A DNA stretch of 61,054 nt from Elusimicrobiota bacterium (GCA_016218575.1 JACRDN010000001.1:1-61054); one strand, 5' to 3'; counted from the first letter of the stretch, positions 35,846-56,344 are shown. The notes: a model not told the origin generated them from the sequence alone. Numbers and translations are program-made.

Positions 35846-36922
35846 ATGATATTCATCGTGGTGGGGGCTCGGCCTAATTTCATGAAAATGGCCCCGATCG
35901 TGCTGGAGATGAAAAAGCGCGGAATCGCCCACCGCCTCGTCCACACCGGACAGCACTACGACCAGTCCATGTCGGCGGTGTTCCTGAAGGACCTTGGCCT
36001 CCCGGCCCCGGACATCTTCCTGGGGGCGGGCTCGGGCACCCATGCCGAGCAAACCGCGCGCATCATGACGGCCTTCGAGAAGGCCTGCCAGGCCCGGAGG
36101 CCGCGGCTCGTGGTCGTGGGCGGAGACGTCAACTCGAGCTTGGCCTGCGCCCTGGCGGCGGCCAAGCTCGGCATTCCCGTGGCCCACGTCGAGGCGGGCC
36201 TACGGTCCTTCGACCGCTCCATGCCCGAGGAGGTCAACCGCGTGCTCGCCGACCACCTCTCGCGCCTGCTATTTACCACTGAGCCGAGCGGGACAAAGAA
36301 CCTCCTCAAGGAAGGCCTGCCCCGCTCCTGGATTCATTTCACGGGCAACTCCATGATAGACAGTCTGCGAACCCATCTGAAGAAGGCCCTCAGCCTGAAG
36401 CCCTGGGAGCGTTTCGGCCTGGCCCCGAACGGCTACGGCCTCGTCACCTTGCACCGCCCCTCGAACGTGGACGACCGCAAAACCTGCCTCGCCACCGGAG
36501 CCGAGCTCAAGAAGATATCCCGGGAGATTCCCCTCATTTTCCCCATCCACCCCAGAACGCGCGAGAGAATGGCCGAGTTCCGCCTCGACATGGGCCCGAA
36601 AGTCATCTGCGCCCCCCCGCTCGGCTACCTCGAATTTCTCGGCCTCATGGCCCGAGCCCGCGCGGTGCTCACGGACTCCGGGGGCATCCAGGAGGAAAGC
36701 ACGGCCTTGGGAGTCCCCTGCGTCACCATCCGCCGCAACACCGAGCGCCCGGTCACCTTGACCCACGGCACCAACCGCTTGGCGCCTCCGGGGCGGATTT
36801 CAATCAGCCGGGCGCTGGGCCTGGCCATGAAGTCCAAGCCCCCGCGCCGTGCGCCACCGCTTTGGGACGGACGGGCCGCCCGGCGCATCGTCCAAGTCAT
36901 CGAAAAATGTGCGGCTTTGTAG
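35846..36922 (+). CDS. wecB: UDP-N-acetylglucosamine 2-epimerase (non-hydrolysing)
   Basis: 358 aa. Interconverts UDP-GlcNAc and UDP-ManNAc. Canonical motifs: VGARPNFMK, VHTGQHYD, VEAGLRSFDRSMPEE (with the catalytic acidic residues), TLHRPSNVD, DSGGIQEES and RNTERP. Length is normal. No UDP-ManNAc dehydrogenase lies nearby, so either ManNAc itself is used or the oxidising enzyme is elsewhere. Its last 16 bases overlap the following asnB start. Confidence 0.95.
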   Translation: MIFIVVGARPNFMKMAPIVLEMKKRGIAHRLVHTGQHYDQSMSAVFLKDLGLPAPDIFLGAGSGTHAEQTARIMTAFEKACQARRPRLVVVGGDVNSSLACALAAAKLGIPVAHVEAGLRSFDRSMPEEVNRVLADHLSRLLFTTEPSGTKNLLKEGLPRSWIHFTGNSMIDSLRTHLKKALSLKPWERFGLAPNGYGLVTLHRPSNVDDRKTCLATGAELKKISREIPLIFPIHPRTRERMAEFRLDMGPKVICAPPLGYLEFLGLMARARAVLTDSGGIQEESTALGVPCVTIRRNTERPVTLTHGTNRLAPPGRISISRALGLAMKSKPPRRAPPLWDGRAARRIVQVIEKCAAL

Positions 36923-38772
36923 GGCTTCTCTACAAAGACGCGGGGCGCTCCGTTTCAAGCCGAGAGCTAGAGCCGCTTTTGGCCGCCATCCGGCACCGCG
37001 GCCCCGATGACCAGGGGATTTACGTGGACCGCCATTTCGGGATGACCCACGCCCGCCTTTCCATCCTCGATTTAAGCCCGCTCGGCCGCCAGCCCATGGA
37101 GAGCCCCGACGGGCGCCTGGTCCTGGCCTACAACGGGGAGGTCTACAATTTCCAGGAGTTGCGCCGGGAGCTCGAGGCCACAGGGTGCCGCCTTAAATCC
37201 CGATCGGACACCGAGGTCGTCCTCAATTGGGCCGGGCTCAAGGAGGATTGGCTCAAGGACTTGCGGGGCATGTTCGCCCTGGCGCTTTGGGACCGCTCCC
37301 GCCAAGCCCTGACCTTGGCTCGGGACCCGTTTGGGATCAAGCCTCTCTATCTCTACGAGGACGGGGAGAAATTCATCTTCTCCTCCGAGCTCGCCGGCAT
37401 ACGGGCCCACCCCCGCGCGAAAACGACCTTGGATCCCATCGCCGTCTCCGACTACCTGAGCTTCAGGTACATCCCGGCCCCGCGCACGGGATTTAGAGAG
37501 GTGCGGAAAGTCTCGCCCGCGTCCTCTCTCCAGCTCTCGCGGGAGGGAGTTTCACCCGAGAAGCGCTACTATGAGCCGAATTTCACTCCCTTGCCCCGCC
37601 GGACCTCCGGAAGGGAGTGGGAAGAGCGGCTTTACGCCGAGCTTAAAAAAACCGTCAAATACCTCCTTATCTCCGACGTTCCGGTCGGGATATTCCTGAG
37701 CGGTGGGCTCGACTCGAGCGCCCTCGTGGCAACCGCCTCGGAGCTCGGGCAGAACCCGCTCAAGACCTTTTCCATCTGCGGCTCCGGCGAGGACATGTAC
37801 GATGAGAGGCCTTACGCCCGCCTGGTGGCGAGAAAGTTCTCGACCGAGCACCATGAGCTCGAGTTTTCCCCCGGCGACCTGCGCCATATTTTGGAGAAAA
37901 TCGTCCGGCACCTCGGCGAACCCGTCTCCGATATGCCCTCCGTGGCCCTCTTCTACTTGAGCCAACTCGCGAAAAAAGAGGTCTCCGTCGTGCTCTCGGG
38001 GGAGGGGAACGACGAGATGCTGGCCGGCTACGGCTTCGAGAAGTATTATTTCTGCCAGAAATACTACTCGTGGCTGGACGGTGGGCCTCCGAAAATCGCC
38101 AAGAAGGCCCTAAAAAGCCTCTTCCCAAATTCCTACTGGCATTTGAGCAGCGCGGAATACCTTCAGAAATTCCTCCCCTCCATGGTGAAGTCCTTCTCGG
38201 ATGGAGGAGTCGCCAAGAAAGACCTCCTGGCGGAGGACTTCTACCCGAAGGGCCACGACAGCCTGGACCTTCTGCGCAGGGCCTACGCCGAAAGCTCGGG
38301 CCTGCCGTTCTTGAACCGCATCCTCAAGGCCTACTCGGGGGCGTGGCTCACCGACGACCTCTTGGCCCGCTCGGACCGCATGACCATGGCCCACGGCCTC
38401 GAGCTCCGGGTCCCCTACCTCGACCATGTCTTCGCGGACTTGGCGGGAAGCCTTCCCCTGGACCAGAAAATCGGCTTCTGGAAGGGAAAGCTGCGCAACC
38501 GCCTGATCTTGAGAAAAATCATGGAAGGAAAGCTCCCAGAGGAGGTCCTGACGCGGCCCAAGGCGGGGTTTACCTTGCCCCTGCGGCGCTGGGCGCGCCA
38601 AGACCTCAAGGAATACCTGCGGGAGGCCTTCGCCGAGGCCCCCTACCCGCTCAAGAGGGAGGCCTGCCTGAAGGTCCTGGAGCGGCATTGGGACTCGCCG
38701 CGCCTCTTTAACCGCGAGGTCTGGCAAATCCTCGTTCTCATCCTGTGGCTGAGGGGGCTCGAAAGCAAGTGA
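36907..38772 (+). CDS. asnB: Asparagine synthetase-type glutamine amidotransferase (AsnB family)
   Basis: 621 aa. MCG start with Cys nucleophile, HRGPDD, NGEVYNFQEL; synthetase domain with SGGLDSS and GEGNDEMLAGY, ending in the LRVPYLDH acceptor-side region. Closest of the four copies to canonical AsnB, yet placed between UDP-GlcNAc 2-epimerase and a GT4 gene, so uronic-acid amidation is more likely than asparagine supply. Overlaps wecB by 16 bases and the next gene by GTGA. Confidence 0.93.
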   Translation: MCGFVGLLYKDAGRSVSSRELEPLLAAIRHRGPDDQGIYVDRHFGMTHARLSILDLSPLGRQPMESPDGRLVLAYNGEVYNFQELRRELEATGCRLKSRSDTEVVLNWAGLKEDWLKDLRGMFALALWDRSRQALTLARDPFGIKPLYLYEDGEKFIFSSELAGIRAHPRAKTTLDPIAVSDYLSFRYIPAPRTGFREVRKVSPASSLQLSREGVSPEKRYYEPNFTPLPRRTSGREWEERLYAELKKTVKYLLISDVPVGIFLSGGLDSSALVATASELGQNPLKTFSICGSGEDMYDERPYARLVARKFSTEHHELEFSPGDLRHILEKIVRHLGEPVSDMPSVALFYLSQLAKKEVSVVLSGEGNDEMLAGYGFEKYYFCQKYYSWLDGGPPKIAKKALKSLFPNSYWHLSSAEYLQKFLPSMVKSFSDGGVAKKDLLAEDFYPKGHDSLDLLRRAYAESSGLPFLNRILKAYSGAWLTDDLLARSDRMTMAHGLELRVPYLDHVFADLAGSLPLDQKIGFWKGKLRNRLILRKIMEGKLPEEVLTRPKAGFTLPLRRWARQDLKEYLREAFAEAPYPLKREACLKVLERHWDSPRLFNREVWQILVLILWLRGLESK

Positions 38773-40055
38773 CGCGCCCCCTGAACATCGCGCTCGTCTC
38801 CTACCACTTCTACAACCACACCGCGGCCGGGCTGTCCACGAGCCAGCTCGCCAAGGCCTTGGCCGACCGCGGGCATAAGATCACGGCTTTCGCCTCTCCC
38901 CATCCCCTCCTGAGCGATCCCGCCATTTTCGCGGCGGAAGGGCCCCTCGCCGGCGTCGCGGCAAGTCCCGTGGCCCCGGCCGGGCCGGGCCCGTGGATGG
39001 CGCGCGTAAGAGAACTCTCGAGGCAAGACTCCCTCCTGGGACGGCTTGCCTGCATCCCGAACCTGGTCCGCGGCTGCAACTGGGAGGAGTGGGATTGGGT
39101 CTTGAGCGCCTCCCGCGGCGTGCGGCAGGCCCACCGCGAAAGGCCCTTCGATCTCGTCCTGACGAGGCTCAACCACTACATCAGCCATTTGGCCGGACTC
39201 GAGATCCGCAGGGCCCTCCCGGGCCTTGCCTGGTGCGCCTACTTCAGCGATCCCTGGCCCCACCATCTCTATCCCACTCCTTACCATTTCAAGGTCGGCC
39301 CCTTGTCGCGCTTGCGCTCGGAGCGGCTCCTCGAGGAAATGCTGTCGCAAGCCGGAAGCTATGTCTTTCCCTCGGAAAGGCTCAAGAACTACCTGCTCAA
39401 GGGCGACAGGGCCAAATACCTAAGCAAGGCCTTCGTGGCCCCGCATCTGGCCAGCCTCTGGAAGCCCGCGCCCCCTCCGCCCGCGCGCCGGACATTGGTC
39501 CTGCGCCACGCGGGATTCCTCATGAAGGAGCGGCGCATCGAGCCGCTATGCGCCGGCCTGCGCCTGTTCCTGGCCAGACGGCCCCGGGCCCGGGAGGAAT
39601 TGCGCGTGGAGTTCGCCGGACGCTATGAAGGAAACGACCTCCCCGCGCCCCCCGCAGACCTCGCCTCCGTGATCGGCTTCCATCCCCATCTGCCTCCCGA
39701 TTCGGTGTGGCGCTGGCTGCAGGAGGCCGACGTCTTCCTCCTGGTCGAGGCCAAGATGGAGGAAGGAGTGTTCTTTTCCTCGAAGCTCGCCGATTATTTG
39801 AGCGGGGGCCGGCCGATATTTGCCCTGAGCCCGCGCCGGGGCGTGACCGCGGATATATTGGGCTCCGGCGGCGGGGTCCTGGCCGAGCCCGACGACGCCG
39901 AGGGCATCAGCCGGGCCTTGGAGCGGGTGCACGGCCTTTGGAAAGAAGGGCGGCTGGGCGAGCTTTCGCCCTCCCGCGAGCAGAGGGAAAGCGTTTCCCC
40001 CGCCCGGGTCATGCCCATTTACGAGGACGCCTTCGCGGCCGCCATCCATGCTTGA
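38769..40055 (+). CDS. GT4-like glycosyltransferase
   Basis: 428 aa from GTG 38769, which overlaps the asnB stop (GTGA). N-terminus NIALVSYHFYNHTAAGLSTSQLAKAL is a standard GT-B opening; the acceptor domain contains YFSDPWPHHLYP. The donor-site region is FFSSKLADYLSGGRPIFALSP rather than the E-x7-E form, so it belongs to a divergent GT4 group. Sugar specificity unknown. Overlaps the CapK-like gene by 8 bases. Confidence 0.82.
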   Translation: MTRPLNIALVSYHFYNHTAAGLSTSQLAKALADRGHKITAFASPHPLLSDPAIFAAEGPLAGVAASPVAPAGPGPWMARVRELSRQDSLLGRLACIPNLVRGCNWEEWDWVLSASRGVRQAHRERPFDLVLTRLNHYISHLAGLEIRRALPGLAWCAYFSDPWPHHLYPTPYHFKVGPLSRLRSERLLEEMLSQAGSYVFPSERLKNYLLKGDRAKYLSKAFVAPHLASLWKPAPPPPARRTLVLRHAGFLMKERRIEPLCAGLRLFLARRPRAREELRVEFAGRYEGNDLPAPPADLASVIGFHPHLPPDSVWRWLQEADVFLLVEAKMEEGVFFSSKLADYLSGGRPIFALSPRRGVTADILGSGGGVLAEPDDAEGISRALERVHGLWKEGRLGELSPSREQRESVSPARVMPIYEDAFAAAIHA

Positions 40056-41445
40056 TCCCCTTCAAATCTACCACCGCCTTCCCTACCCCCTGCGGGTCCT
40101 GGCCGCCAGCGCTCGAGGCTATTACCTGCGCTCCTGGCGCTATGGCCCGGAAACCGAGGGGCTGGTCGCCCAGGCCCTGGAGCGGGACTTCTGGAGCGCG
40201 GGACGCTGGAAAGCCTGGCAGGAAGAGCGCTTGGCCTTCATCCTGCACCGAGCGGCGACTCGAGTGCCTTATTACCGAAGCCTATGGGAGGACCGCCGCC
40301 GCAGGGGAGACCGTTCATCTTGGGAGATCCTCGACAATTGGCCTATCCTGGAAAAGGAGCCCTTGAGGCTGGCTCCCCAAGAGTTCGTGGCCGACGACCG
40401 CTCTATCGGGGGAATGTTTCCCGAGCACACCAGCGGCAGCTCGGGGAAACCCCTGCGCCTCTGGTGGAGCCTCAAGACCGTGCGGGCCTGGTATGCCCTC
40501 TTCGAGGCCCGCTGGAGGCGCTGGCACGGGGTCGGGCGCATGGACCCTTGGGCTCATGTCGGCGGGCAAATGGTGGCGCCCTTCGGCCGGACCAAGCCCC
40601 CCTTCTGGGTCTGGAACGCGGGCTTAAATCAACTGTACCTATCTTCCTATCATTTGGCTCCGGCCTTCATCCCCCATTATTTGGAGGCCTTGAAGCGCCA
40701 CCGCGTCAAATACATCCTAGGCTACACGTCATCCCTCCACGCCCTCGCCCTCGAGATACTGCGCCTAGGCCGCAAGGACCTCTCCCTCAGCGTCGCCATC
40801 ACCGATGCCGAGCCGATCCTCGAGCACCAGCGGCAAGCCATCGCCGAGGCTTTCCAATGCCCGGTACGGGCGACCTACGGCATGGCGGAGGCCGCGGCGG
40901 CCGCGGGGGAGTGCCGGGAGGGCGGCGCGCATCTCTGGCCCGAGGCCGGCTGGCTCGAGGTCATGGAGGACGGCCGGCCCCAGCCCCGCGGACAAGCCGG
41001 GGAGCTGCTCGCGACCGGGCTCCTGAATGAGGACATGCCCCTCATACGCTACCGAGTCGGCGACCGCGCCGCCCTGGCCGGGGAGGAACCCTCCTGCCCA
41101 TGCGGCCGGGGCCTTCCCCTTCTGGCGAGAGTCGAGGGGCGAAGCGACGACGTGCTTTACTTACGCGACGGCCGCAAGGTGGGGAGGCTCGACACGGTTT
41201 TTAAGGCGGACCTCTGCATTCGAGAAGCGCAAATCGTCCAGGAATCCTTGAGCCGGGTCCGCATCAAGTTCGTGCGCGGGCCGGACTACGCGGCGAGCAC
41301 CGGCGAGGCCATGGCCCGGCGCCTGAAGGAGCGCCTCGGGCCCGTCGAGGTCGTCTTGGAGGAAGTCGCGATGATCTCGCGAACCGGGCGCGGAAAATTC
41401 CAGGCTGTGCTCTGCCGGATCCCGTCTGAGGAGAGACCGAAATGA
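40048..41445 (+). CDS. CapK/PaaK-like adenylate-forming enzyme
   Basis: 465 aa of the phenylacetate-CoA ligase/CapK branch of the ANL superfamily. The adenylate P-loop is TSGSSGKP, followed by YTSSLHALA, the YGMAEAA motif and RYRVGDRA; the mobile C-terminal domain is present. Such proteins occur in capsule clusters and activate a carboxylic acid, possibly for amide or ester attachment to a sugar; substrate is not known. Overlaps both neighbours (8 and 4 bases). It may cooperate with the ACP module encoded convergently at 42701-47225. Confidence 0.82.
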   Translation: MLDPLQIYHRLPYPLRVLAASARGYYLRSWRYGPETEGLVAQALERDFWSAGRWKAWQEERLAFILHRAATRVPYYRSLWEDRRRRGDRSSWEILDNWPILEKEPLRLAPQEFVADDRSIGGMFPEHTSGSSGKPLRLWWSLKTVRAWYALFEARWRRWHGVGRMDPWAHVGGQMVAPFGRTKPPFWVWNAGLNQLYLSSYHLAPAFIPHYLEALKRHRVKYILGYTSSLHALALEILRLGRKDLSLSVAITDAEPILEHQRQAIAEAFQCPVRATYGMAEAAAAAGECREGGAHLWPEAGWLEVMEDGRPQPRGQAGELLATGLLNEDMPLIRYRVGDRAALAGEEPSCPCGRGLPLLARVEGRSDDVLYLRDGRKVGRLDTVFKADLCIREAQIVQESLSRVRIKFVRGPDYAASTGEAMARRLKERLGPVEVVLEEVAMISRTGRGKFQAVLCRIPSEERPK

Positions 41446-42728
41446 AATTCGGCTCGAAAATCTACGCGCTCGCCTTGGGACTGTCCCTGGCCTTGAGCCT
41501 CGGCCTGCGCTGCTATTACGTCTTCGGCTACATGGGCTTTAACGAGACCGTTAAAAACATCGGAGGCGACGCCGGCGACTATCTGCAGATCGCCTATACC
41601 TTGGCCAAGACCGGGCAATACGCCCGGCCCGCGAATGTGAGCGCCGGGCAAATCAAGGCCGCCTTGGCCGAGGGCAGGCCCCTCGAGGTCCGGGCCGGCT
41701 ACAAGGACTCCTACCGGCCGCCCTTGTGGCCCCTCCTTCTGGCGCTATTTCTAAAAATCAGCGGATATAAACTCAAAACGCTCTTCCTGCTGCGCTTTTT
41801 GCTGGACGCCGGGAGCCTGATCATGCTGACGCGCTTGGCCCTCCTCTTGAACTTGAGCCCGCTCCTGGCCTGCCTGGCCCCGCTCTATTTCGCGGTCCAT
41901 CCAACGTCGCTTCTTTACTCGGGAACGCTTCTCTCCGAGCCATTATCCATGTTCCTCCAGCTCTCTTTGGCCCTAGGGACGTGCTACTGCCTATTCCGCC
42001 AGGCTCCACGGGGGTGGAGCCTGGGACTGGGAGCGCTCGGCGGCTTGAGCGCGCTGGCCCATCCCTTCTCCCTGTTCTTCCCTCTATTTTTGGGCGCGGG
42101 CCTTTACGGGACCAAACGCATCTCTCTCAAGGCCCTTTTCGGATTTCTCTTGGGCCTGGCACTTTCGGTGTCGCCTTGGCTCATCCGCAACAGGATCCTG
42201 TACGGCAAGACCTTTTTGACCACGTCCTCGGGCAACGTCCTGGCCAGCAGCTGGAACTCGACCTTCCTCCAGCGCTACCGCAACACCACCGCCGAGGTGA
42301 TGCTCGACCCCGATCCGATCCCGGGCGCGGAGTCCTTGGGGGCCGCCGAAAGATGCTCGGCTTACTCCCATGCCGCTTTCAAGTTCATGCGGGAGAACTG
42401 GCACCTTGTCCCGGCCATCGCGGCGCGCAAAATCGTCGGGGCCGCGACGCCCATTCCGGAAACGCCGCGGGAGGGAATATTGGAAAAGGGCAGGGCCCTC
42501 TTCCAAGTCATCGCCTTCCTGCCGGTGCTGTGGCTGCTGATCCTGCCCGGAGCCGGACTATTCCGGCTCATCTTGGCTTCGGTCGCGGGAGGGTATCTCG
42601 CCATGGCCGTGCTCACGTACCCGAGCATTCGGTTTCGCGCTCCTCTCATTTGGGCCGAGACCCTGGCGGTTTTCGTCTGGCTCGATTTAATGGCAAAGCG
42701 CTACTGCCAGAATTCCTTCCAGGAATAG
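41442..42728 (+). CDS. Polytopic GT-C (GT39-like) glycosyltransferase
   Basis: 428 aa, about 9-10 hydrophobic helices. The first large loop has GGDAGDYLQIAY and RPPLWPLLLAL, the usual GT39 layout with an Asp after TM1. Probably uses a polyprenyl-phosphate sugar on the outer face of the inner membrane. ATG overlaps the CapK-like stop (ATGA). Ends with a 28-base overlap of the convergent acyltransferase gene. Confidence 0.78.
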   Translation: MKFGSKIYALALGLSLALSLGLRCYYVFGYMGFNETVKNIGGDAGDYLQIAYTLAKTGQYARPANVSAGQIKAALAEGRPLEVRAGYKDSYRPPLWPLLLALFLKISGYKLKTLFLLRFLLDAGSLIMLTRLALLLNLSPLLACLAPLYFAVHPTSLLYSGTLLSEPLSMFLQLSLALGTCYCLFRQAPRGWSLGLGALGGLSALAHPFSLFFPLFLGAGLYGTKRISLKALFGFLLGLALSVSPWLIRNRILYGKTFLTTSSGNVLASSWNSTFLQRYRNTTAEVMLDPDPIPGAESLGAAERCSAYSHAAFKFMRENWHLVPAIAARKIVGAATPIPETPREGILEKGRALFQVIAFLPVLWLLILPGAGLFRLILASVAGGYLAMAVLTYPSIRFRAPLIWAETLAVFVWLDLMAKRYCQNSFQE

Positions 42729-43282
42729 CCCGACTGCACGACGGCGGCGGGATTACCGACGATCCAGCAGTTGGGCTCGGGGAATCTCTTGGTGACCACG
42801 GCTCCGAGCCCCACGAAAGCCCCGTCCCCGACCCCCGCTCCCGGCGCGAAAAGGACGGCGGCCGCGATATAGGCTCCCTTGCCGATCACGATGGAGGTAT
42901 CCGGGGTCATCTTGGTGGCGCCGTGGGTCCAGAATTGGCAGCTTTTGGCGATCCACGTCCCGTCGCCGACGGTGATGGAATTCCAGCCGTCGAAATAGGC
43001 GTCCACGTATATCTTAACGTCCCGGCCGAGCTCGATGCGGCCTCGGCCCACGAAGGAGTTCCCGGAATGGATCCTCGCGCCCGCCCCGACCCGGAACTCC
43101 CCCACGGAGATGTTGTTGCGGCCGCCGATCATCACATCATCCCCTATGACGCAGGTTTTGGAGGTGATATGGGCCTTGTAGCCGATGCGGACATTGCGGC
43201 CGATGCGCAAGCCCAGGAGCCGGTAGCCCAGCACCCTCAGGGAATTAAAGGGGAGGCGGCAGACGAGGTTGGCCAGGTCCAT
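42701..43282 (-). CDS. Left-handed beta-helix (hexapeptide) acyltransferase
   Basis: 193 aa. Repeats of the I-G-x4 type run from RIGRNVRIG through VGDGAFVGLGAVV, with the usual WIVGNPAAVV end. WTHGA supplies the candidate catalytic His. Resembles sugar O-acetyltransferases of the WbbJ/maltose acetyltransferase type. I start at ATG 43282 (MDLANL); an upstream start at 43312 would overlap the methyltransferase. Last gene of the ACP-module operon, so it could transfer the ACP-bound acyl group as well as acetyl; both are inference. Confidence 0.82.
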   Translation of the reverse strand: MDLANLVCRLPFNSLRVLGYRLLGLRIGRNVRIGYKAHITSKTCVIGDDVMIGGRNNISVGEFRVGAGARIHSGNSFVGRGRIELGRDVKIYVDAYFDGWNSITVGDGTWIAKSCQFWTHGATKMTPDTSIVIGKGAYIAAAVLFAPGAGVGDGAFVGLGAVVTKRFPEPNCWIVGNPAAVVQSGYSWKEFWQ

Positions 43283-43287
43283 GCGTC

Positions 43288-44211
43288 TCAAGCCGAGGCC
43301 GTGATCACGCATGAGATGGTCAGGGAATTCTTTCGAGCGGCCTGCTCGGAATAGCCGGTGAGCGGGAAGTTCCTCCGCTCCACGATTTTAAGGCCCGAGC
43401 TTTCGACCAATCGGGCGGCCTCCTCCGGGGATCTAAGCAAATAAATGTGGTCGGGCGAAGGGGAGTTGACCGGGACATTGATGAACACTCGTCCTTCCCC
43501 TGCCAAGCGGTCTTTTATCGAGGCCAGGAGAGCCCGGGGGTTTTCCACGTGTTCAAGGACCTCGCTTATCACCACGCTGTCGAACCGGGGTCCATCCGTT
43601 GGAGCCTCCATCACGTTCACGCGCCTCAGGGAAATCCCCTCTCCCACCCCGAGAGCCTCCAAATTCCGGCGGGTGAGATCGAGCGAGGATTGGCTTATGT
43701 CCCAGCCCTCCAAGAGCGCCACCCGGCCGCACAGGGCGGCCAGGCAAAGAAACAACCCGTGCCCGGGACCGATCTCCAAATGCCGGGACCCGGGCTTGAG
43801 GATCGGCAGGAAGTCCGCGGCGTAGCAATGCATGACCTCCACATGATTCCTCCAGAAAAGCTGGGACAGGAGCAAGCCCTTGATCCAACGGTCCATCACG
43901 GCCCGATTCTGGTAGAAGCCCTTGTCCACCTCCTCCAAGGTCGAACGCCGGTAGCGCCCCGTGCGAAAAAAATCGAGCTGCTCTTCGTTGATGCGTTCGC
44001 ACATCCAGCGGTAGGACGCGGCGTACTCGGAAAGTTCCCCGCCAACGAGCTTCAAAGCCAGCCCGGCCAAATTCTCGCTCGAGGACATGACCTCGGGGGA
44101 ACGGCCGCTCAGGCTCTTGGCCAAATACGTTTCATGCTCGGGCCAGGCCGAGAGCTCGGCCTCAATGAAGGTCCTCAAGGCCGGGAAGGCGGCGAGACCT
44201 TCTATGGCCAT
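43288..44211 (-). CDS. Class I SAM-dependent methyltransferase in the ACP operon
   Basis: 307 aa from ATG 44211, overlapping the PPTase gene by 10 bases. The first ~120 residues are helical and precede the Rossmann fold. Motif I is LEIGPGHGLFL, then VVISEVLEHVENP. This two-part architecture occurs in methyltransferases near FkbH-type genes. FkbG, the methyltransferase of methoxymalonyl-ACP synthesis, is a functional precedent, but identity is not shown. Confidence 0.8.
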   Translation of the reverse strand: MAIEGLAAFPALRTFIEAELSAWPEHETYLAKSLSGRSPEVMSSSENLAGLALKLVGGELSEYAASYRWMCERINEEQLDFFRTGRYRRSTLEEVDKGFYQNRAVMDRWIKGLLLSQLFWRNHVEVMHCYAADFLPILKPGSRHLEIGPGHGLFLCLAALCGRVALLEGWDISQSSLDLTRRNLEALGVGEGISLRRVNVMEAPTDGPRFDSVVISEVLEHVENPRALLASIKDRLAGEGRVFINVPVNSPSPDHIYLLRSPEEAARLVESSGLKIVERRNFPLTGYSEQAARKNSLTISCVITASA

Positions 44212-44855
44212 GGCAGGCAGCGCAGCCTCGGCGCCGCCCCTTCCACGGCAACGGCCGCGGCGTACCCCGGCAGCAACGACAGCTCCCGCACGGCCCAGCC
44301 TGAGGGCGCGGCCGGAACTCGGGCCAGGTCGGCTACGCAGCCCAAGCCCCGGCCCAGGGCCTTGAGATAGGCCTCCTTGCGGGTCCAAGCGGCGTAAAAG
44401 GCCTTCGCCTTCAAGCCCGCCCCGAGAGAGACGAACCCCTCCAACTCCGCGGCTTCCATGACGTGCCGCGCCAGGGTGTCGAAGGGAAGCGCCCGCATCA
44501 GCTCCACGTCCACCCCGATCCTTCGCCCGAGAGCCATCCCGCAAAGGATTCGCCCATGGGAGTGGGAGAGGCTGAACTCCAGGGGCCCGCCCGCTTCGGC
44601 CAGAATCGGCTTGCCCAACGGCGTCTGGCGCAAGAGAAGACGCCGCGGATCCGCGCCCAAGTACCGGCCCAACAAAGACCTCATGATCCCTCTTCCCAGG
44701 ATGAACTGGGCCCGATCCTTTTCAAAAACAAATCTTCGCGCCCGCGCCTCTTCCTCGGGGCTGAGCAGCCGGCCGAGAGCCTCAAGGCCCTGGAACGATT
44801 CGGCGGGCCCCGCGTGCCAGAGGTGGGCCTCTTGCTCGTTAAGAGGAGGCATCAT
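44202..44855 (-). CDS. Sfp-type 4'-phosphopantetheinyl transferase
   Basis: 217 aa. Magnesium-binding GVDVE (Asp116, Glu118) and WTRKEAYLKALG (Trp157, Lys160-Glu161-Ala162) are intact, with LSHSH before them. Converts apo carrier proteins to holo form using CoA. It overlaps the FkbH-ACP gene by 17 bases, so the carrier domain encoded there is its obvious substrate. Sfp-type enzymes usually serve secondary-metabolite carriers rather than fatty-acid ACP. Confidence 0.92.
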   Translation of the reverse strand: MMPPLNEQEAHLWHAGPAESFQGLEALGRLLSPEEEARARRFVFEKDRAQFILGRGIMRSLLGRYLGADPRRLLLRQTPLGKPILAEAGGPLEFSLSHSHGRILCGMALGRRIGVDVELMRALPFDTLARHVMEAAELEGFVSLGAGLKAKAFYAAWTRKEAYLKALGRGLGCVADLARVPAAPSGWAVRELSLLPGYAAAVAVEGAAPRLRCLPWP

Positions 44856-46821
44856 CGAAGGTTTCCGCCATTTTCGAGACGGTGGAAATCTTAAGGAGAT
44901 AGGACAGGGGCAGCCTCTTGCCGATGGCTTGCTCGATCCGCGCGGAAAGGCGAAGCGCCGTCAGGGAATCTCCGCCCAACTTGAAAAAATCATCGTCCGG
45001 GCGGATGGGGGAGACGCCCAAGACTTCTTCCCATATCTTGAGCAGCTTTTCCTGGATGGATCTCTCGGTTCCGGCCGCTGACGCGGCCGGGATGACCCTC
45101 ATGGCCTTCAGGACGCTCTCCGCGTCGGACAACTCCTGCCATAGCGCTGCGTCCTGACTCAGCACCGCGCCGGCGGTGCCGGGCTGGAATTCTTCCGACC
45201 CTGTCGCCGTCATGGGATAGGGTGTTGCCGCGCCTCCCGGCTCATAGCGGAGCTTCTCCAGATACCCCGGATCGAATTCCAGCGAAATGCCCCCCTCGGA
45301 CTCGGCCTTGGACAAGGCCTCGAGACTCCCCAAAAATTCCCACGCCGGCTGGTTCTTGGAGCTGCGCAGCAACCGCACGAGGACCCGCCCCGCATTCCTG
45401 CCGCGCGCGATCTCCCCAAGCCGGGCCAGCATCCGGTGCTCGATCCCCCTGCCCAAAGCCCGGCAGCTGAGCATGAGGGAGTCCAGGTCCAGGCGCCCAG
45501 CCTCGGCGCGGAATAGGGCCGCTCCCACCAAGCCGTAGTCGCCAAAGCGGTCGCTCACCCGCACCGCGAAGCACTCGAGTTTGCCGGGCTTCAGAAGGTC
45601 TTTGAGCTCAGCTTCGGAGCGCCGGATCGTGGTAAAACTAAACTGATTGGTCCTCAGGGAGAGTTCGGCCAGCCTCGGCAAATGCTCGGGCCCGGGCGCG
45701 AACATATCAACCTTCATGGCCAGGTTTTCGAGAAACTCTTCGAGACTGAGGGCTTGGCTCTTAAGGCGCTCCCTCTCCAGGTTCTGCTCGTAGAAGCGCG
45801 CCCGGCCCGCGGCCTCCCGGGAGACCGCGAGGCGGTCAAAGGCCCAGACGTGACGCAAGGCCTTCCGGACTCGCTCCGAATCCAAAGGCCACTGAAGGCA
45901 CAGGACCTCCGGGCATCGGTCCCGCACCTCGGCGCACTCGACGGGGCTGTCATCCATGAAAATGAAGCTCTCCAGGCCGAGGCCCAGCTCCTGGGCCAGG
46001 GACTTGAGATTCTCGGACTTCGGCCTCCAGTTGAGCCTGGAGGCCGACAACTGCGCGCGCTTAAGCGCCATCTCCGGGCGCCTTTCGAAGACCTGCCAGA
46101 CGTCCGCCTCGTTGTTGCGGCTGCACAGCGCCAAGAGCATGCCGGCCTGGCGCTGTTCCAGCATGAATCTTTGGAATTCGAGGCGCGCCGGGTCGAGCTC
46201 CACTCCGCCCGGCCCGTCCTCTCCGCACACGCCCTTCCATAAGACTTGATCGCAGTCGAGCGCGATGACCTTGCGCGGCAGGCTTTTCAAAGCGTGGATT
46301 TTGCGGCAAATCATGGTCCCCAGGGCCGCTAAAAAAGCGTCTGTGTAAGGGAGTTCCCCCAATTCCTCCGTATAGGAATTGTAGTAGTCGGAAACGGGGT
46401 AGAAGCGGGCGAGTTCCTCGCTCGTGACAAGATAAAAACCGGGGAGTTGCAAGATAGTTCTGGCGATCGTGCTCTCTATGCCAAGCGCTATTTCTTTATG
46501 CTTGGGCCCGGCCGAGGCTTCGGGCGAGTCCGGACATAAAAATATGAAATGGGGCGCGCCTTGATGGGCGGAAGCGGCCTCCAGGCCTCGGGTGAACTCC
46601 GGAAGGACTCCTTTCAAATCTCCGTAGCGCGCGAGGATTACGTTGACGCCGTCCCGGTTGCGCGAGAACAGGCCCGAGGGATCCAGAAGCTGCTGAAGCA
46701 CCTGGTTGAAGGGGGCGAACTCGACTTTATAGAGAAACCCAAGCTTTCCCAGCCAGAACGAGAGGCTCGCCCCCACGGGCTCGGCGGTGAAGAAGGCGGC
46801 TACGGCCAAGGTCTTGGTCAC
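44839..46821 (-). CDS. FkbH-like HAD protein with C-terminal acyl carrier domain
   Basis: 660 aa. N-terminal ~180 residues, then an FkbH HAD domain with DCDQV (189-193) and WKGVCGEDG, MDDSPVEC further on, a GNAT-like domain (RVSDRFGDYGLVG), and a carrier domain near the C-terminus with the phosphopantetheine site GGDSL (Ser619). FkbH enzymes dephosphorylate 1,3-bisphosphoglycerate and load the glyceryl unit on an ACP, here in cis. The GTG start at 46821 overlaps the VOC stop (GTGA). Suggests a glyceryl- or lactyl-derived acyl group for the glycan. The loaded unit is inferred. Confidence 0.88.
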   Translation of the reverse strand: MTKTLAVAAFFTAEPVGASLSFWLGKLGFLYKVEFAPFNQVLQQLLDPSGLFSRNRDGVNVILARYGDLKGVLPEFTRGLEAASAHQGAPHFIFLCPDSPEASAGPKHKEIALGIESTIARTILQLPGFYLVTSEELARFYPVSDYYNSYTEELGELPYTDAFLAALGTMICRKIHALKSLPRKVIALDCDQVLWKGVCGEDGPGGVELDPARLEFQRFMLEQRQAGMLLALCSRNNEADVWQVFERRPEMALKRAQLSASRLNWRPKSENLKSLAQELGLGLESFIFMDDSPVECAEVRDRCPEVLCLQWPLDSERVRKALRHVWAFDRLAVSREAAGRARFYEQNLERERLKSQALSLEEFLENLAMKVDMFAPGPEHLPRLAELSLRTNQFSFTTIRRSEAELKDLLKPGKLECFAVRVSDRFGDYGLVGAALFRAEAGRLDLDSLMLSCRALGRGIEHRMLARLGEIARGRNAGRVLVRLLRSSKNQPAWEFLGSLEALSKAESEGGISLEFDPGYLEKLRYEPGGAATPYPMTATGSEEFQPGTAGAVLSQDAALWQELSDAESVLKAMRVIPAASAAGTERSIQEKLLKIWEEVLGVSPIRPDDDFFKLGGDSLTALRLSARIEQAIGKRLPLSYLLKISTVSKMAETFDDASS

Positions 46822-47225
46822 GGGGCCTCGACCAGCTCGATCACGTCGTTTTGGGGAGTATAGAGGAAAGCGATCCGGCGCCCCTCGAAAGCCACGGCCG
46901 GGGTCGGCCCGGAGATCAGGCGGCAGCCTTTTTCCTCGAAGCGCTTGATCTCCGGCTCCAAGCCGCGAGCCTCGTAGCACAGATGATAGAAGCCGCCCCG
47001 CCTCGCCTTCAAGATCCGGCTGACCGGGCTTGACTCGTCCATGGGTTCGACCAGCTCGACGCGCTCCCCGCTGGCCAAAGTGATGAACGCGACCCGGACC
47101 TTCTGCAGAGGATCTTCGTAAACCCGGCTGATTCCGCAGGGTTCGAACAGGGGCTGAAAAAAATCATTCCAGTAGCGCTCAATGTCCTCGACGGCGTAGC
47201 CGATATGGTTCAGGCGCAGGCCCAT
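46818..47225 (-). CDS. VOC-family (glyoxalase/methylmalonyl-CoA epimerase-like) protein
   Basis: 135 aa with two beta-alpha-beta-beta-beta modules. Metal ligands fit the methylmalonyl-CoA epimerase pattern: NHIGYAV (His), ERVELVEP (Glu), FYHLCYE (His) and DVIELVEA (Glu). Head of the FkbH-ACP operon, with a GTGA overlap into that gene. An epimerase or hydrolase acting on a carrier- or CoA-bound acyl unit is plausible. The start lies beside a palindromic element, 13 bases from a TATACT within its arm. Confidence 0.82.
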   Translation of the reverse strand: MGLRLNHIGYAVEDIERYWNDFFQPLFEPCGISRVYEDPLQKVRVAFITLASGERVELVEPMDESSPVSRILKARRGGFYHLCYEARGLEPEIKRFEEKGCRLISGPTPAVAFEGRRIAFLYTPQNDVIELVEAP

Positions 47226-47233
47226 TTAATTTA

Positions 47234-47290
47234 GTGACAGTATACTTAATTCCTAACATCACGGTCCGATCGGAATTAAGTACCTGTCAC
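47234..47290. repeat. 57-bp palindromic element, GTGACAG...CTGTCAC
   Basis: GTGACAG (47234-47240) pairs with CTGTCAC (47284-47290), and TACTTAATTCC pairs with GGAATTAAGTA inside, offset by one base. Sits between the divergent VOC and epimerase genes, 10 bases before the latter's -35 box. Same size and same arm form (GTGnCAGnnAC) as the element at 35747-35802. Confidence 0.78.
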
Positions 47291-47300
47291 CGCATTGCCG

Positions 47301-47329
47301 TCGACAAGGAAAGCGGGCGCTGCTAACCT
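47301..47329 (+). promoter_or_regulatory. Putative promoter of the epimerase operon
   Basis: TCGACA (47301-47306), 17-base spacer, TAACCT (47324-47329) with an upstream TGC as an extended -10. ATG at 47337 is 7 bases further, with no Shine-Dalgarno sequence. Leaderless arrangement. Confidence 0.4.
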
Positions 47330-47336
47330 TGGGGCG

Positions 47337-48401
47337 ATGCGGGTATTGATCACGGGATCAAGTGGGCTCATCGGGTCGGAGGCCGTGGAGTATTACGCCC
47401 GGGGCGGGCACGAGGTATCGGGCGTGGATAACAACATGCGCCGGGTCTTCTTCGGCGAGCCCGGCGACACGCTCTGGCGCCTGGGGGAGCTCAAGGGGAA
47501 ACACCCTGGTTTCAGCCACCATGCCATAGACATCCGCGACCGCGACGGGCTCACAGCACTCTTCAAAAGCGGGAGCTTCGACCTGATCATCCACTGCGCG
47601 GCCCAGCCTTCCCATGACCAGGCCGCGGCCATTCCCCTCCTCGACTTTGACGTCAACGCCGGGGGCACGCTCAACATGCTAGAGGCCGCCCGCCAGCATT
47701 GCCCGGAGGCGGTGTTCATCCACATGAGCACCAACAAGGTCTACGGGGACGCTCCCAATGAGCTCCCCTTGGTCGAGCTCCCCACGCGCTTCGATTACGC
47801 CGAGCCCGCGCGGCGCGCCGGGATCGGCGAGGACTGCCGGATCGACCGCTGCCTGCACTCCCTGTTCGGGGCCTCCAAGGCCGCCTCGGACCTCATGGCG
47901 CAGGAATACGGGCGCTATTTCGGCATGAAGGTGGGAGTGTTCCGCGGGGGGTGCCTGACCGGCCCCTCGCAGTCCGGAGTGGAGCTGCACGGTTTTTTGT
48001 CCTATCTCGTCAAGGCCGCGGTGCAGGGAAAGCCCTACACCGTGTTCGGCTACAAGGGCAAGCAGGTGCGCGACCAAATACACAGCATGGACGTGATCCG
48101 GGCCTTCGACGCCTTCGCGGCCGATCCCCGCCCCGGAGAGGTTTACAACATCGGCGGGGGCCGGGAAAACAGCCTCTCCGTGCTCGAGGCCCTGGAAATG
48201 GTCGGGAATTTGCTGGGAAGAAAGGTGGACTGGGAATACCGCGAGGCGCCCCGCCGGGGAGACCACGTCTGCTACATCTCCGACCTTGCCAAGCTCAAGA
48301 GCCATTTCCCCGCTTGGGGCATCACCAGGAGCCTGCCCTCCATCCTGGAAGAAATGGTGGCGGCCGAGCGGCTGCGGTTGGAGCCGAGGCCCGCCTCTTG
48401 A
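47337..48401 (+). CDS. CDP-paratose 2-epimerase-like NAD-dependent sugar epimerase
   Basis: 354 aa extended [11 protein letters not shown] binds [29 protein letters not shown] (catalytic Ser/Lys region), FRGGCLTGP and [17 protein letters not shown] are characteristic of the RfbE (CDP-paratose/tyvelose 2-epimerase) group. Acts on a nucleotide-linked deoxysugar at C2. No CDP-glucose pathway genes lie in the window, so the actual substrate may be another nucleotide sugar. First gene of a three-gene plus operon. Confidence 0.85.
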
Positions 48402-49798
48402 GCCGCTCGCGCATCCTCGATTATTACCTCTCGATCGGCCCCGAATGGGAAAAATGGCAGGGCAAGAACGCTTATTACCACTGCCTGGTCCGGGACCTGG
48501 TGATGGGCATGACGCGGCCCCGGTCGCGTATCCTGGAGATTGGAGCCGGCGTCGGAGATCTCTCGGAGCTCCTGGTCCGCCAGTCCGAGACCTTGATCGG
48601 CCTCAACTACTGCGAGGAGCTGACCCTCTGGGCCCGCGCCCGCGTTCCGCGGGCGCGCTTTCACACCGTGGACATAGACGAGATCAGGATCCCCTCGGGC
48701 TTCTCGCCCGACTGCGTGATCATGCGCAACATGCTCGACTACGTCCATGATCTGTCGGAGATGGCCGAAAAGCTCGCTAAAATCCTGCCCCCGGACGGGA
48801 TACTCATCGTGACGACCAGCAATCCCATGTGGGCTTCTTTGCTGCGCGCGGCCGCGCGCCTGGGCCTGCGCTTCCCCGAATCCCCGCGCAACTACATCAC
48901 CAACAACGACATCAAGAACATCCTGGAGCTCCAGGGCTTTTGCGTGGTCGAGGCCGGCATGGCCGCGCCGATGCCAAAATACATCCCATTGTTTTCCTGG
49001 CTCATGAATCTTCTAATTCCCGAAATTCCCGTCGCGCGCTACATCGGAGCGACGCAATATCTCTGCGCTCGGCCCATCAAGCCCCGCCCTCCCTTGTCCT
49101 GCTCCGTGATTATCCCCTGCCACAACGAGGAGGGAAACATCGCCCGCACCGTGCGCCGCGTGCCCCGGATGGGCACGACCACCGAGGTGATCGTGGTGGA
49201 CGACGGCTCGAGCGACGGCACCCGCAAGGCCGTCGAGGCGCTTATGGCCGAGGATCCCGCGGTCAGGCTCGTGCGCTTCGACAAGAACCGGGGCAAGGCC
49301 GAGGCGGTGTTCGCGGGATTTACGGCCGCCAAGGGCGATGTGGTCATGATACTCGACGCCGACGCCACGGTGGAGCCGGAAGTCCTGCCGCGGTTCTTCA
49401 AGCCCATTCAGGAGGGCCGCGCGGATTTCGTCAACGGAACCCGCCTCATCTATCCCATGGAAAAGAACGCCATGCGCTTCATGAACTTCCTCGGGAACAA
49501 GGCCTTCTGCTTGCTGGCGAGCAAGGTCCTGCGCCAACGAGTCAGCGACACCCTCTGCGGCACCAAGGCCATGCTGCGCCGGGACTTCCTCGACATGCCG
49601 CGGGGCGGGGCCGACCGCTGGGGAGACTTCGCCCTCCTCTTTGGCGCGGCCAAGCTCAAGTTGCGCATCCGCGAGATGCCCCTCTATTACCAGGAGCGAA
49701 CATCGGGCAAGTCCAAGATGAGGGGCTTTGTGGAGGTCTGGCGCTTCCTCTGGGCCTGCTGGCAGGGCTGGAGAATGCTGCGCCTGGGCCCGCCGTGA
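48398..49798 (+). CDS. SAM methyltransferase-GT2 glycosyltransferase fusion
   Basis: 466 aa. TTG start at 48398 overlaps the epimerase stop (TTGA); no better start exists in frame. Residues 1 to ~215 are a class I methyltransferase ([21 protein letters not shown]). Residues ~223-466 are a GT2 domain of the dolichol-phosphate-mannose-synthase type ([51 protein letters not shown]). The second part probably makes a polyprenyl-phosphate sugar or extends a lipid-linked glycan. Confidence 0.86.
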
Positions 49799-50535
49799 CT
49801 TGCCTCGATGACGCGGCGCGAGTGAAGATCCTCCGGGAGACCATCCGGAACAAGAAAGCCTTGCGCGCCTTCTACGAGGATTGCTACCAGAAATTCAAGG
49901 CCTGCCTGGCCCACTGCCCCACCGAAGGAGAGGCCCTCGAGATCGGCTCGGGCGGCGGCTTCTGCGAGAAAGTTATCCCCGGCGTCGTCACCTCGGATTT
50001 TCTGCCTTACGAGGGAGTCTCCCGCGTGATGGACGCGCGCCGCCTGGAGTTCCCGAACGAGTCCCTGCGGGCCATATTCATGCTCAATGCCTTCCACCAT
50101 GTCTGCGACCCGGGCCGCTTCCTGGAGGAGGCCGAGCGCTGCTTGAGGCCGGGGGGCAGGCTTTTCATCATCGACCAGCACCCCGGCATCTTGGGCTACC
50201 CTCTCCTGCGATTGCTCCACCACGAGGGCTTCGACGCCGCGGCCCGCGAGTGGAGCTTCGCCTCCTCCGGGCCCTTGAGCGGGGCCAATGGGGCCCTGGC
50301 TTGGATGGTCTTTCGCCGGGACGCGGCGAAGTTCGGCGAGCGATTTCCCAAGCTGAGAATCATCGCGTACCGCCCGCACACCCCTCTGCTTTACTGGCTA
50401 GCCGGAGGCCTCAAGCCCTGGTGCCTGGTCCCGTCGGCGCTCCTTCCCGCGGCCAAGGCCCTGGACCGGGCCCTACTGCGCCTTTCCCGCGATTGCGGGA
50501 CCTTCGTGGACATCGAGGTAGCCAAGACGGGATAG
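49795..50535 (+). CDS. Class I SAM-dependent methyltransferase
   Basis: 246 aa from GTG 49795 (GTGA overlap with the fusion gene). Motif I LEIGSGGGFCEKV, MLNAFHHVCDPGRFLEEAERCLRPGG and FIIDQHPG place it in the Methyltransf_11 group. Last gene of the epimerase operon; 63 bases of its 3' end overlap the convergent GT-C gene. Likely sugar or lipid-linked substrate. Confidence 0.84.
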   Translation: MTCLDDAARVKILRETIRNKKALRAFYEDCYQKFKACLAHCPTEGEALEIGSGGGFCEKVIPGVVTSDFLPYEGVSRVMDARRLEFPNESLRAIFMLNAFHHVCDPGRFLEEAERCLRPGGRLFIIDQHPGILGYPLLRLLHHEGFDAAAREWSFASSGPLSGANGALAWMVFRRDAAKFGERFPKLRIIAYRPHTPLLYWLAGGLKPWCLVPSALLPAAKALDRALLRLSRDCGTFVDIEVAKTG

Positions 50536-52619: not shown

Positions 52620-53582
52620 CTACTCCAGGGCGCGTCGAGCCGCCTCGGAGAGGCCCCCATCCAACCGGGACCTGTCCAGCCCGAAGGAGCGCCCGAAGCG
52701 CGTGGCCGGCGTCAGATACATCCAGGTCGCCAAGAGCCTCTCGCCTTTGGTGGCGTAGCCTCCGCGATGGAAGCCGCTGGTGTCGCAGAACACCATGGTC
52801 CCGGCCGGGCACTCGCAGGAAACGCGCGCCCCGGGCGGCACCTCCCTCTCGATCCGGGCTTGATCGGGGTAGGAGTAGATGCCGCCCCCGCCGGCCAACG
52901 GGAACAAATGGGCGTACGGGCCGCCGGGGCGGCTTCCGGGGATGTATTCGAGAGGACCGGAGGCCGGCCCCACGTCGGAGAGGCAATAGAAGGCCTTGAC
53001 GAGCCTGCGGTCCTCGGGGTCGCGGTGCCAATTCTGGGAGTTCTGCCGGGGCCGCTCGGAGTCCACCGGGATCGTATACCATACGTTGGCGCCCTTGAGC
53101 TTGGAAAACAGCTCCAAATAGCCGTTGGCGACGTTCAAGAGAGGTTCGCTTAAACCCAGGCGCAGAAGAGGGTGGTCCGGGGCCAGCATTTCGAAATCGG
53201 AGAGGAGCTTGACGATGTAGTCCTTTCCCGGACTGTCCTTGGGATCGCTTTGGTACCGGGCGATCCTGTCGGCAACCTTGGGACTGGAGGCGAAAGCCTT
53301 GGCCAGGGATTCGACATCCCGCAAGAGGGCCGCCCCCTCTTGCCCGAGCACCTCCGCCGCGGGAGCCATGGCGACCCCGCGAGCCTTAAGATCCGCGATC
53401 AACCGGGCCTGGACGGGAGCCTCCCTGCGGAGAGCGTCCTTCCACCGCCTGCGGCTCCCGGCATTGGCTCCCCAGCGCCAGTGGTATTCGAAGAGAAAAC
53501 CTTGCCGAAGCCGCCGGGCGTAATCCCTCAGGACCGAAAATAACCGCCCCGAGAATATCAAGCTTCCAACTTTTGCGAGCAT
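52620..53582 (-). CDS. PhyH-family Fe(II)/2-oxoglutarate dioxygenase
   Basis: 320 aa. Iron ligands: WHRDPED (His-x-Asp) and the distal His in SGFHRGG; the Arg for 2-oxoglutarate would be in the following strand. Family members hydroxylate lipids or small molecules. I use ATG 53582 (MLAKVG), 4 bases after the methyltransferase stop, because the longer frame upstream is a shadow. Ends in TAG, in the same frame as the FkbM gene. Role in the glycan locus unknown; hydroxylation of a sugar, acyl chain or lipid is possible. Confidence 0.8.
   Translation of the reverse strand: MLAKVGSLIFSGRLFSVLRDYARRLRQGFLFEYHWRWGANAGSRRRWKDALRREAPVQARLIADLKARGVAMAPAAEVLGQEGAALLRDVESLAKAFASSPKVADRIARYQSDPKDSPGKDYIVKLLSDFEMLAPDHPLLRLGLSEPLLNVANGYLELFSKLKGANVWYTIPVDSERPRQNSQNWHRDPEDRRLVKAFYCLSDVGPASGPLEYIPGSRPGGPYAHLFPLAGGGGIYSYPDQARIEREVPPGARVSCECPAGTMVFCDTSGFHRGGYATKGERLLATWMYLTPATRFGRSFGLDRSRLDGGLSEAARRALE
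52623..52626 (-). promoter_or_regulatory. Shine-Dalgarno sequence supporting a CTG start for the FkbM gene
   Basis: On the minus strand GGAG is followed by TAGACC and then CTG (52614-52616). The motif lies in the last codons of the PhyH gene. Spacing of 6 bases is right for ribosome binding, and no other initiation codon exists between here and 52481. Confidence 0.45.
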
Positions 53583-53586
53583 CGGC

Positions 53587-54378
53587 CTACCTGCGGGCCA
53601 CCATGGTGTAGAGATGTTTGTCGCCCCGGTAATACTTCTGCGTGTGATAGGTGATCCGGACATGCGGGAATCCGAGGATTTTCGCGAACTCCGCCGCCAG
53701 CTCGGGAGGGAGTATCCACCAAGTCTCATAGGGATAGCGGCCCTCGGCGCGGGGCAAAAATTCCATGGCGCTGGGCGAGGCGAAGCGCCGGAGAAGATCC
53801 CTCTTCCAGCCCCGGCTGATGCTCGGCACGTCGGTCACGATCAAGGTGTCCCGGCAAAGGCGCGCGGCCCGGCACATGGCCTGAAAGGGATCGCGCACAT
53901 GCAGCAGAATCGAGCCGAAGGTCACAATGTCCACTGGGCCGATGGCCTCCGGAACCTCGTAGACCGTGCCGTGAACGACCCGGGCCTTGGAGCCCAAGAG
54001 GCCGCGGGTCAGCCACCAGGCGTTGTTGGTCTTCTTGATGTGCTCGCGGCGCTTCTCCATGATGGCCTTCGCGTCGAACTTCGGGTGGACGTAGGGCACG
54101 ATATCCCAGCTTTGGTTCTCGGACAGGTCGTAGCCCACGACCTCGGCTCCCTGCCTTTCCATGTAAAAGCACAGGTAGCCGTTGGCGGTCCCGATCTCGA
54201 GGACCCTCTTGCCCTTGAGCTCGCAGCGGCCAAGGTAGTCTGCCTCCCCTCCCCGCAGGTCCCATTCCCCCTTTTGGAGCCCGTGGCGCGGCAGGTCTAT
54301 GGTATGGTAGAAGTAGCAGTCCTCCGGCGAAGCAACCTCTCGCGGGGGGGCATAGACGCCGTCTTTTTCCGGGCTCAT
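53587..54378 (-). CDS. Class I SAM-dependent methyltransferase (tRNA-mo5U34-like fold)
   Basis: 263 aa. Motif I LEIGTANGYLCFYM, VVGYDLSENQSWD and FGSILLHVRDP; the N-terminal FYHTIDLPRHGLQKGEWD resembles CmoB-type domains, although this placement suggests a glycan or small-molecule substrate. ATG 54378 overlaps the WbsX-like stop (ATGA). Followed by PhyH after 4 bases. Confidence 0.85.
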   Translation of the reverse strand: MSPEKDGVYAPPREVASPEDCYFYHTIDLPRHGLQKGEWDLRGGEADYLGRCELKGKRVLEIGTANGYLCFYMERQGAEVVGYDLSENQSWDIVPYVHPKFDAKAIMEKRREHIKKTNNAWWLTRGLLGSKARVVHGTVYEVPEAIGPVDIVTFGSILLHVRDPFQAMCRAARLCRDTLIVTDVPSISRGWKRDLLRRFASPSAMEFLPRAEGRYPYETWWILPPELAAEFAKILGFPHVRITYHTQKYYRGDKHLYTMVARR

Positions 54379-56309: not shown

Positions 56310-56315
56310 GACAGC

Positions 56316-56344
56316 AGTGTAAAGCAATGCCGGAACTTTGTCAA
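56316..56344 (-). promoter_or_regulatory. Putative promoter of the oxygenase operon
   Basis: Minus strand: TTGACA (56339-56344, perfect), 17-base spacer, TACACT (56316-56321), then only 6 bases to ATG 56309. No Shine-Dalgarno sequence fits. Best single example of the leaderless pattern. Confidence 0.6.

Follow-up and report, generated by a model that had tools for sequence, protein, structure and literature searches.

A run of five minus-strand genes (42701-47225) in an Elusimicrobiota genome is rather likely to work as a carrier-protein module whose product, a modified three-carbon acyl donor, serves a surface glycan. The donor would be made and used through the steps of a phosphopantetheinyl transferase (PPTase), an FkbH-type enzyme, a VOC protein, a methyltransferase and a left-handed beta-helix (LbH, hexapeptide) acyltransferase. 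The module has overlapping genes of this content, intact active-site residues, no detectable PKS or NRPS partner, and a gene linkage that recurs elsewhere and includes gene fusions. Polyketide pathways are where FkbH/ACP chemistry is known. A version that is conserved and directed to glycans would explain how bacterial glycans come by their glyceryl and methylglyceryl groups, including the di-O-methylglyceric acid of Campylobacter jejuni flagellin, whose route is unsolved. It would also provide a function open to testing for a VOC clade whose closest profile is that of methylmalonyl-CoA epimerase.

A carrier-protein operon in a glycan locus

The window (the whole stretch of DNA analysed, 61,054 nucleotides) is the entire contig 1 of a genome of 2.82 Mb (23 contigs, 97% complete). 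The five genes, all on the minus strand, are given here in transcription order. The first encodes a VOC protein (Glyoxalase_4; 135 aa; 46818-47225; PF13669, E 9e-18) and the second an FkbH-ACP fusion (660 aa from the GTG at 46821; 44839-46821; TIGR01686 and PF00550, the latter with E 1e-16). They are followed by genes for a PPTase of Sfp/HetI type (217 aa; 44202-44855; PF01648 and PF22624), a class I SAM methyltransferase (307 aa, ATG at 44211; 43288-44211; PF13489, E 3e-13) and a WbbJ/WcaF-like LbH acyltransferase (203 aa; 42701-43312; PF00132). These profile matches confirm the five genes named in the preliminary description. The genes overlap end to end at 4/4 junctions, the GTG start of the FkbH gene having bases in common with the TGA stop of the VOC gene, and because all junctions overlap the run looks like one translationally coupled operon. 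The PPTase is assigned to the Sfp/HetI class because PF01648 and PF22624 both pass their cut-offs; its score on the HetI equivalog NF042922 is 142 bits, below the cut-off of 370.

The operon and a GT39-like gene (41442-42728) converge at the operon's 3′ end; at the 5′ end an epimerase gene, 69 bp away, runs divergently. The plus-strand genes on the 3′ side (35846-42728) encode a WecB-type UDP-GlcNAc 2-epimerase, an AsnB-type amidotransferase, a glycosyltransferase, a CapK-like AMP-binding protein (40048-41445) and the GT39-like membrane protein. Those on the 5′ side (47295-50535, plus strand) encode an NAD-dependent epimerase/dehydratase, methyltransferases and a GT2 glycosyltransferase. Further along the glycan locus (52620-56327), genes for a PhyH-type and a 2OG-Fe(II) oxygenase lie on either side of those for a WbsX glycosyltransferase and a methyltransferase.

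Proposed pathway and known counterparts

Every chemical step given here, like the exact product and the acceptor, is what we infer for the module. The PPTase would add phosphopantetheine to Ser619 of the carrier. The HAD and acyltransferase domains of FkbH would move a glyceryl group from 1,3-bisphosphoglycerate via Cys453 to the carrier arm, giving D-glyceryl-S-ACP. The acyl unit should then stay glyceryl, since the two oxidising enzymes of the methoxymalonyl pathway have no counterpart among the genes scanned. The VOC protein would deprotonate C2 of the 2-hydroxyacyl thioester by way of a metal-bound enediolate. The methyltransferase would O-methylate the carrier-bound glyceryl, and the hexapeptide acyltransferase would use the result to acylate a sugar, on a hydroxyl or an amine. 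The earlier interpretation, a glyceryl-type or O-methylglyceryl unit built on the ACP and moved to the glycan, is strengthened by the analysis and plausible. The CapK-like enzyme, which had been suggested to activate the same or another acid, met with neither support nor contradiction.

The methoxymalonyl-ACP pathway (FkbG/H/I/J/K of FK520; Mad11-15, the corresponding genes of tetromadurin, PMC7489565) also starts from 1,3-bisphosphoglycerate, whose C3 unit is handled by an FkbH-type enzyme, a carrier and an O-methyltransferase. In contrast to it, the window has no ketosynthase acceptor and has a VOC protein and an acyltransferase besides. A Pfam scan of the operon and neighbouring genes (about 30.6-61 kb) found no 3-hydroxyacyl or acyl-CoA dehydrogenase, hence no enzyme of FkbI/FkbK type. 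Because neither of its dehydrogenases turned up among the nearby genes, this pathway, which the preliminary description had cited, is not the right template. The tetronate glycerate-utilisation operon (FkbH, ACP, FabH-like; Mad7/Mad8/Mad16, PMC7489565) has in common with the window that glyceryl-S-ACP would be used as such. The window operon differs in having no FabH-like partner, in its glycan rather than polyketide context, and in the added VOC protein and methyltransferase.

The nearest precedent, by analogy of gene kinds, would be C. jejuni flagellin. In strain 11168, di-O-methylglyceric acid is found on pseudaminic acid of flagellin (PMC3068675); the flagellin locus includes cj1302, a gene with an fkbH domain, cj1301, annotated as an 'epimerase' (PMC7099621), and the ubiG-like cj1300 (PMC8405632). 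By published annotation, not by alignment, the gene kinds of this locus would match those of the window: FkbH, 'epimerase' and methyltransferase genes in a glycan setting. The link of cj1300-cj1302 to the acyl group is unproven in C. jejuni, and no literature treating Cj1300-1302 together was found; nor was any found on FkbH with capsule or O-antigen. A glyceryl-type product for the window module would fit both the FkbH family and this precedent. The carrier of the C. jejuni FkbH system is not known to be fused.

Methyltransferase and acyltransferase

The predicted structure of the methyltransferase (pLDDT 90.7) has an alpha-helical N-terminal domain and a Rossmann domain. The fold search returned generic class I methyltransferases only, including the PKS-embedded StiD O-methyltransferase, and is uninformative on substrate; in the profile search, UbiG was weakly matched. 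The LbH protein is a candidate acyl-ACP:glycan transferase and may use plain acetyl-CoA.

The methyltransferase and the LbH protein might instead act directly on sugar (O-methylation and O-acetylation), the acyl module then consisting of VOC, FkbH, ACP and PPTase only, with its transferase elsewhere in the locus. This is somewhat unlikely. It agrees with the profile search, in which the best matches of the LbH protein are acetyltransferases of WcaF/WbbJ type, although its score is under every curated acetyltransferase cut-off, and with the other methyltransferases of the glycan locus, which look sugar-directed. The distribution of the two genes argues against it. The methyltransferase family (METHYLTRANSFERASE), which is broad, is rare in the phylum (2/295 genomes at E<1e-10) and in both genomes has a VOC gene nearby. 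Outside the phylum, L073, L083 and L099 have a homologue next to a VOC gene; in L079 and L097 the homologue is near FkbH and VOC is lacking; the family also adjoins VOC in L149. An LbH gene has FkbH, ACP and VOC genes as neighbours in three archaeal loci (L076, L086 and L107).

Stand-alone FkbH loci

Forty-two stand-alone FkbH loci were taken from a species-representative collection; by their gene content they are glycan-type settings. An ACP-like ORF is present at ≤2.5 kb in 39/42, a count that is somewhat circular because the ACP model was iterated on the same loci; the un-iterated model already gave 16 small ACP ORFs. VOC is present in 14 of the 42, several of which also have the methyltransferase family of the window and LbH, MBOAT or GNAT acyltransferases. 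Unsupervised clustering of neighbours gave ACP, MaoC/SDR, LbH acyltransferase, VOC, sugar epimerases, GT2, AcpS-type PPTase, DegT aminotransferase, the window methyltransferase family, FabH-type KSIII, MBOAT and GNAT. As some stand-alone loci carry KSIII, the statement that there is no condensing enzyme holds for the window, not for all its relatives. Homologous modules are found in glycan loci across phyla, which is the neighbourhood conservation proposed earlier as a check.

The product could also be a C3 unit that has been reduced or dehydrated, such as lactoyl, rather than methylated glyceryl; this is unlikely for the window. MaoC dehydratase and SDR reductase genes, present in 21 of the stand-alone loci, could turn glyceryl-ACP into lactoyl-ACP, and a fused module of Paenibacillus (L052) has MaoC, SDR, FkbH, VOC and ACP. 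However, the Pfam scan of the operon and its neighbours showed no MaoC dehydratase or FabG-type SDR, and VOC and MaoC tend not to occur together. Among the stand-alone loci (L072-L115), MaoC is present in 3/14 with VOC versus 17/28 without (p 0.02; post hoc, relatedness of the 42 loci uncorrected). This tendency suggests that glyceryl-ACP has more than one fate, perhaps epimerised glyceryl in some loci and lactoyl in others. A strict rule that VOC excludes MaoC was dropped, both being present in three loci and in the L052 fusion.

AcpS, FkbH, ACP, LbH acyltransferase and VOC genes occur together in the Thorarchaeota, Bathyarchaeum and Asgard contigs L076, L086 and L107. In the culturable model organism Sinorhizobium meliloti 1021 (pSymB 626686-647063, L164), a span of about 6 kb holds FkbH-, ACP- and VOC-like ORFs. 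A polysaccharide locus of Paludibaculum fermentans (plasmid pPfer1, L163) has an exosortase gene next to genes for ACP and VOC; no FkbH was seen in that stretch.

FkbH-ACP protein and search for an assembly-line partner

The FkbH domain scores 279 bits on TIGR01686 (cut-off 146.65). The protein includes an N-terminal domain (~1-160), a HAD domain (~180-320), a GNAT-like acyltransferase domain (~340-510) with Cys453, a linker, and a carrier domain (586-656). In the predicted structure (mean pLDDT 84.6), the N-terminal/HAD part matches 3slr (Bacteroides fragilis BF1531) and is followed by the GNAT-like domain and the carrier. The carrier serine is exactly residue 619, within LGGDSL, as the preliminary description had it. 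Alignment with homologues shows the expected catalytic residues intact (D189, D191, S234, K268, D290/D291, Cys453); Cys453 is invariant in the window protein and in every homologue spanning that position. HAD motif I is DCDQV (residues 189-193; 46243-46257), with the departures N192Q and T193V, which stay inside the pattern DxDx(T/V); N is found in 90/94 and T in 92/94 aligned homologues. As motif I departs from that of homologues, the substrate or step of the window FkbH could differ. Q at position 192 is found in no other FkbH of the 94-homologue comparison.

In a tree of 96 FkbH domains, two groups are well supported, one of 40 rows and one of 54. The 40-row group (support 99) is mostly carrier-fused, and 27/40 of its rows are PKS/NRPS; the 54-row group consists of stand-alone FkbH from loci without KS or condensation domains. 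The window FkbH sits in the carrier-fused, assembly-line lineage, not in the stand-alone glycan lineage. Within the same group, FkbH-ACP genes lie beside glycosyltransferase genes, without KS or condensation domains, in Acidobacteria (L038, L042, L043, L071) and a cyanobacterium (L036). The plasmid pOJF2_1 of the planctomycete Aquisphaera (L165, left out of the tree) has an FkbH-ACP-thioesterase gene in an annotated exosortase/EPS locus. With these relatives, carrier-fused FkbH in glycan loci is not unique to the window genome.

A recurring cassette of FkbH-ACP and glycosyltransferase is seen in L042 (6342-11453), L043, L071, L036 and L165 (11953-14964); no description of it was found. The cassettes (LEGE 07170, Acidobacteria, Aquisphaera pOJF2_1) are like the window in having carrier-fused FkbH in glycan/EPS loci without KS. 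They differ in that a thioesterase is fused to the carrier or to the nearby glycosyltransferase, and no VOC or methyltransferase was seen in them.

A ketosynthase outside the window using this ACP had been named as a finding that would overturn the preliminary description. The genome-wide search, whose scope is a 97%-complete genome of which the remaining 3% could hide a partner, returned one FabF-type ketosynthase (C8), a weak match (C20) and two KSIII-type matches. It found no modular KS and no condensation domain. With only FabF- and KSIII-type KS and no condensation domain, no PKS/NRPS partner is detectable for the window carrier; this supports across the genome the earlier view that the FkbH/ACP/PPTase/methyltransferase module of the glycan locus has no ketosynthase to work with. 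No further FkbH was found in the genome-wide search; the window copy is the sole one. Supply of methoxymalonyl-ACP to a PKS is rejected: the 97%-complete genome has no PKS acceptor (one FabF-type KS genome-wide) and no condensation domain.

It is improbable that the operon is a decayed or relocated polyketide/NRPS starter module, in which FkbH-ACP would be an assembly-line remnant making a diffusible metabolite, or nothing. The place of the window FkbH in the assembly-line clade, the PCP-like carrier (LGGDSL; top structural matches: NRPS carrier domains) and the unusual motif I would agree with such an origin. Against it stand the genome-wide search, in which neither a KS partner nor a condensation domain was detectable, the catalytic residues of FkbH, all intact, the overlapping operon with its dedicated PPTase, and the sister FkbH-ACPs that are already in glycan loci without KS.

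VOC protein

The VOC protein had been described as methylmalonyl-CoA-epimerase-like. This stands for profile similarity, which is closest to that family, but not for function: its score on TIGR03081 is 62 bits (equivalog cut-off 114.95) and it falls in a separate, FkbH-linked clade. The true methylmalonyl-CoA epimerase of the genome (144 bits on the same model) is encoded on contig C14 and is 33% identical to the window protein. A methylmalonyl-CoA epimerase role is therefore ruled out by the score, the clade and the enzyme encoded elsewhere.

In a tree of 51 VOC sequences, FkbH-linked and FkbH-fused VOCs form one clade (22 sequences, support 98/100) and the others a second clade (98/100). The window VOC, whose gene adjoins that of FkbH, is placed in the former (98/100). 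All members of this clade are beside FkbH or fused to it, except that of G177, which lies on a 3.2-kb contig with VOC-MT-ACP-MT (MT, methyltransferase) up to the contig end. Relations within the clade are unsure because several rows have long branches. The window VOC shares with methylmalonyl-CoA epimerase the VOC fold and metal ligands (H7, E57, H81 and E130, all conserved); relative to the genome's own epimerase, the clade is marked by Cys83 and a PAxxF...R motif.

In the phylum, VOC lies within about 2 kb in 3 of ~19 FkbH loci other than the window, versus ~0.008 expected. The combination of VOC, FkbH and ACP genes is not due to chance, the linkage recurring far above expectation. Two single polypeptides join these domains: an NRPS of Chitinophaga (L060; in order C, FkbM-methyltransferase, FkbH, VOC, ACP) and that of Paenibacillus (L052; in order C, MaoC, SDR, FkbH, VOC, ACP). 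These fusions indicate that VOC and methyltransferase belong with FkbH on one carrier; FkbH-VOC-ACP fusion is the strongest hint to the function of the VOC protein. The methyltransferase parallel between L060 and the window is functional, not homologous, because the fused enzyme is of another family (FkbM). A literature search for FkbH with VOC listed no paper containing FkbH. The FkbH-linked VOC clade, its fusions, and carrier-fused FkbH in glycan loci of several phyla are new here.

Glyoxalase I and methylmalonyl-CoA epimerase alike remove a proton adjacent to the (hemi)thioester carbon and stabilise the enediolate with a metal. The ligands H7/E57/H81/E130 are those common to these two enzymes. 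The natural counterpart of such proton abstraction on glyceryl-S-ACP would be C2 epimerisation, so that the VOC protein is, by this analogy, most likely a C2 epimerase. It is very improbable that it has nothing to do with the carrier, being a glyoxalase/isomerase or detoxifying enzyme that is in the operon only by coincidence: these ligands and the top structural matches (2qh0 and 3hdp, annotated as lactoylglutathione lyase/glyoxalase-I) would allow it, but the clade-specific FkbH linkage across phyla and the fusion directly between FkbH and ACP domains argue against it, and the annotation of 2qh0 and 3hdp may be loose, as both carry the Cys and R-x-V/A-F motif of the FkbH-linked clade.

More broadly, and tentatively, the FkbH-linked VOCs may be a new enzyme, a C2 epimerase of carrier-bound glyceryl (2-hydroxyacyl thioester). 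With FkbH, ACP, methyltransferase and acyltransferase they might form a widespread pathway (bacteria, Asgard and Bathyarchaeia contigs) that puts L-glyceryl or O-methyl-glyceryl on surface glycans.

Divergent intergenic region

The 69 bp upstream of the VOC gene (47226-47294) contain a perfect 11-bp inverted repeat. The arms TACTTAATTCC/GGAATTAAGTA (47243-47282) are perfect over 11 bp and both are extended by GTGACAG arms. An Rfam search of the window gave no matches. The 18-nt repeat motif is also found at C11, C19, C20 and C22 of the genome, some copies with an inverted partner nearby. As the motif is dispersed, the inverted repeat is probably not specific to the operon, and a regulatory hairpin specific to the operon was rejected on the same ground; the motif is a dispersed REP/REPIN-like element.
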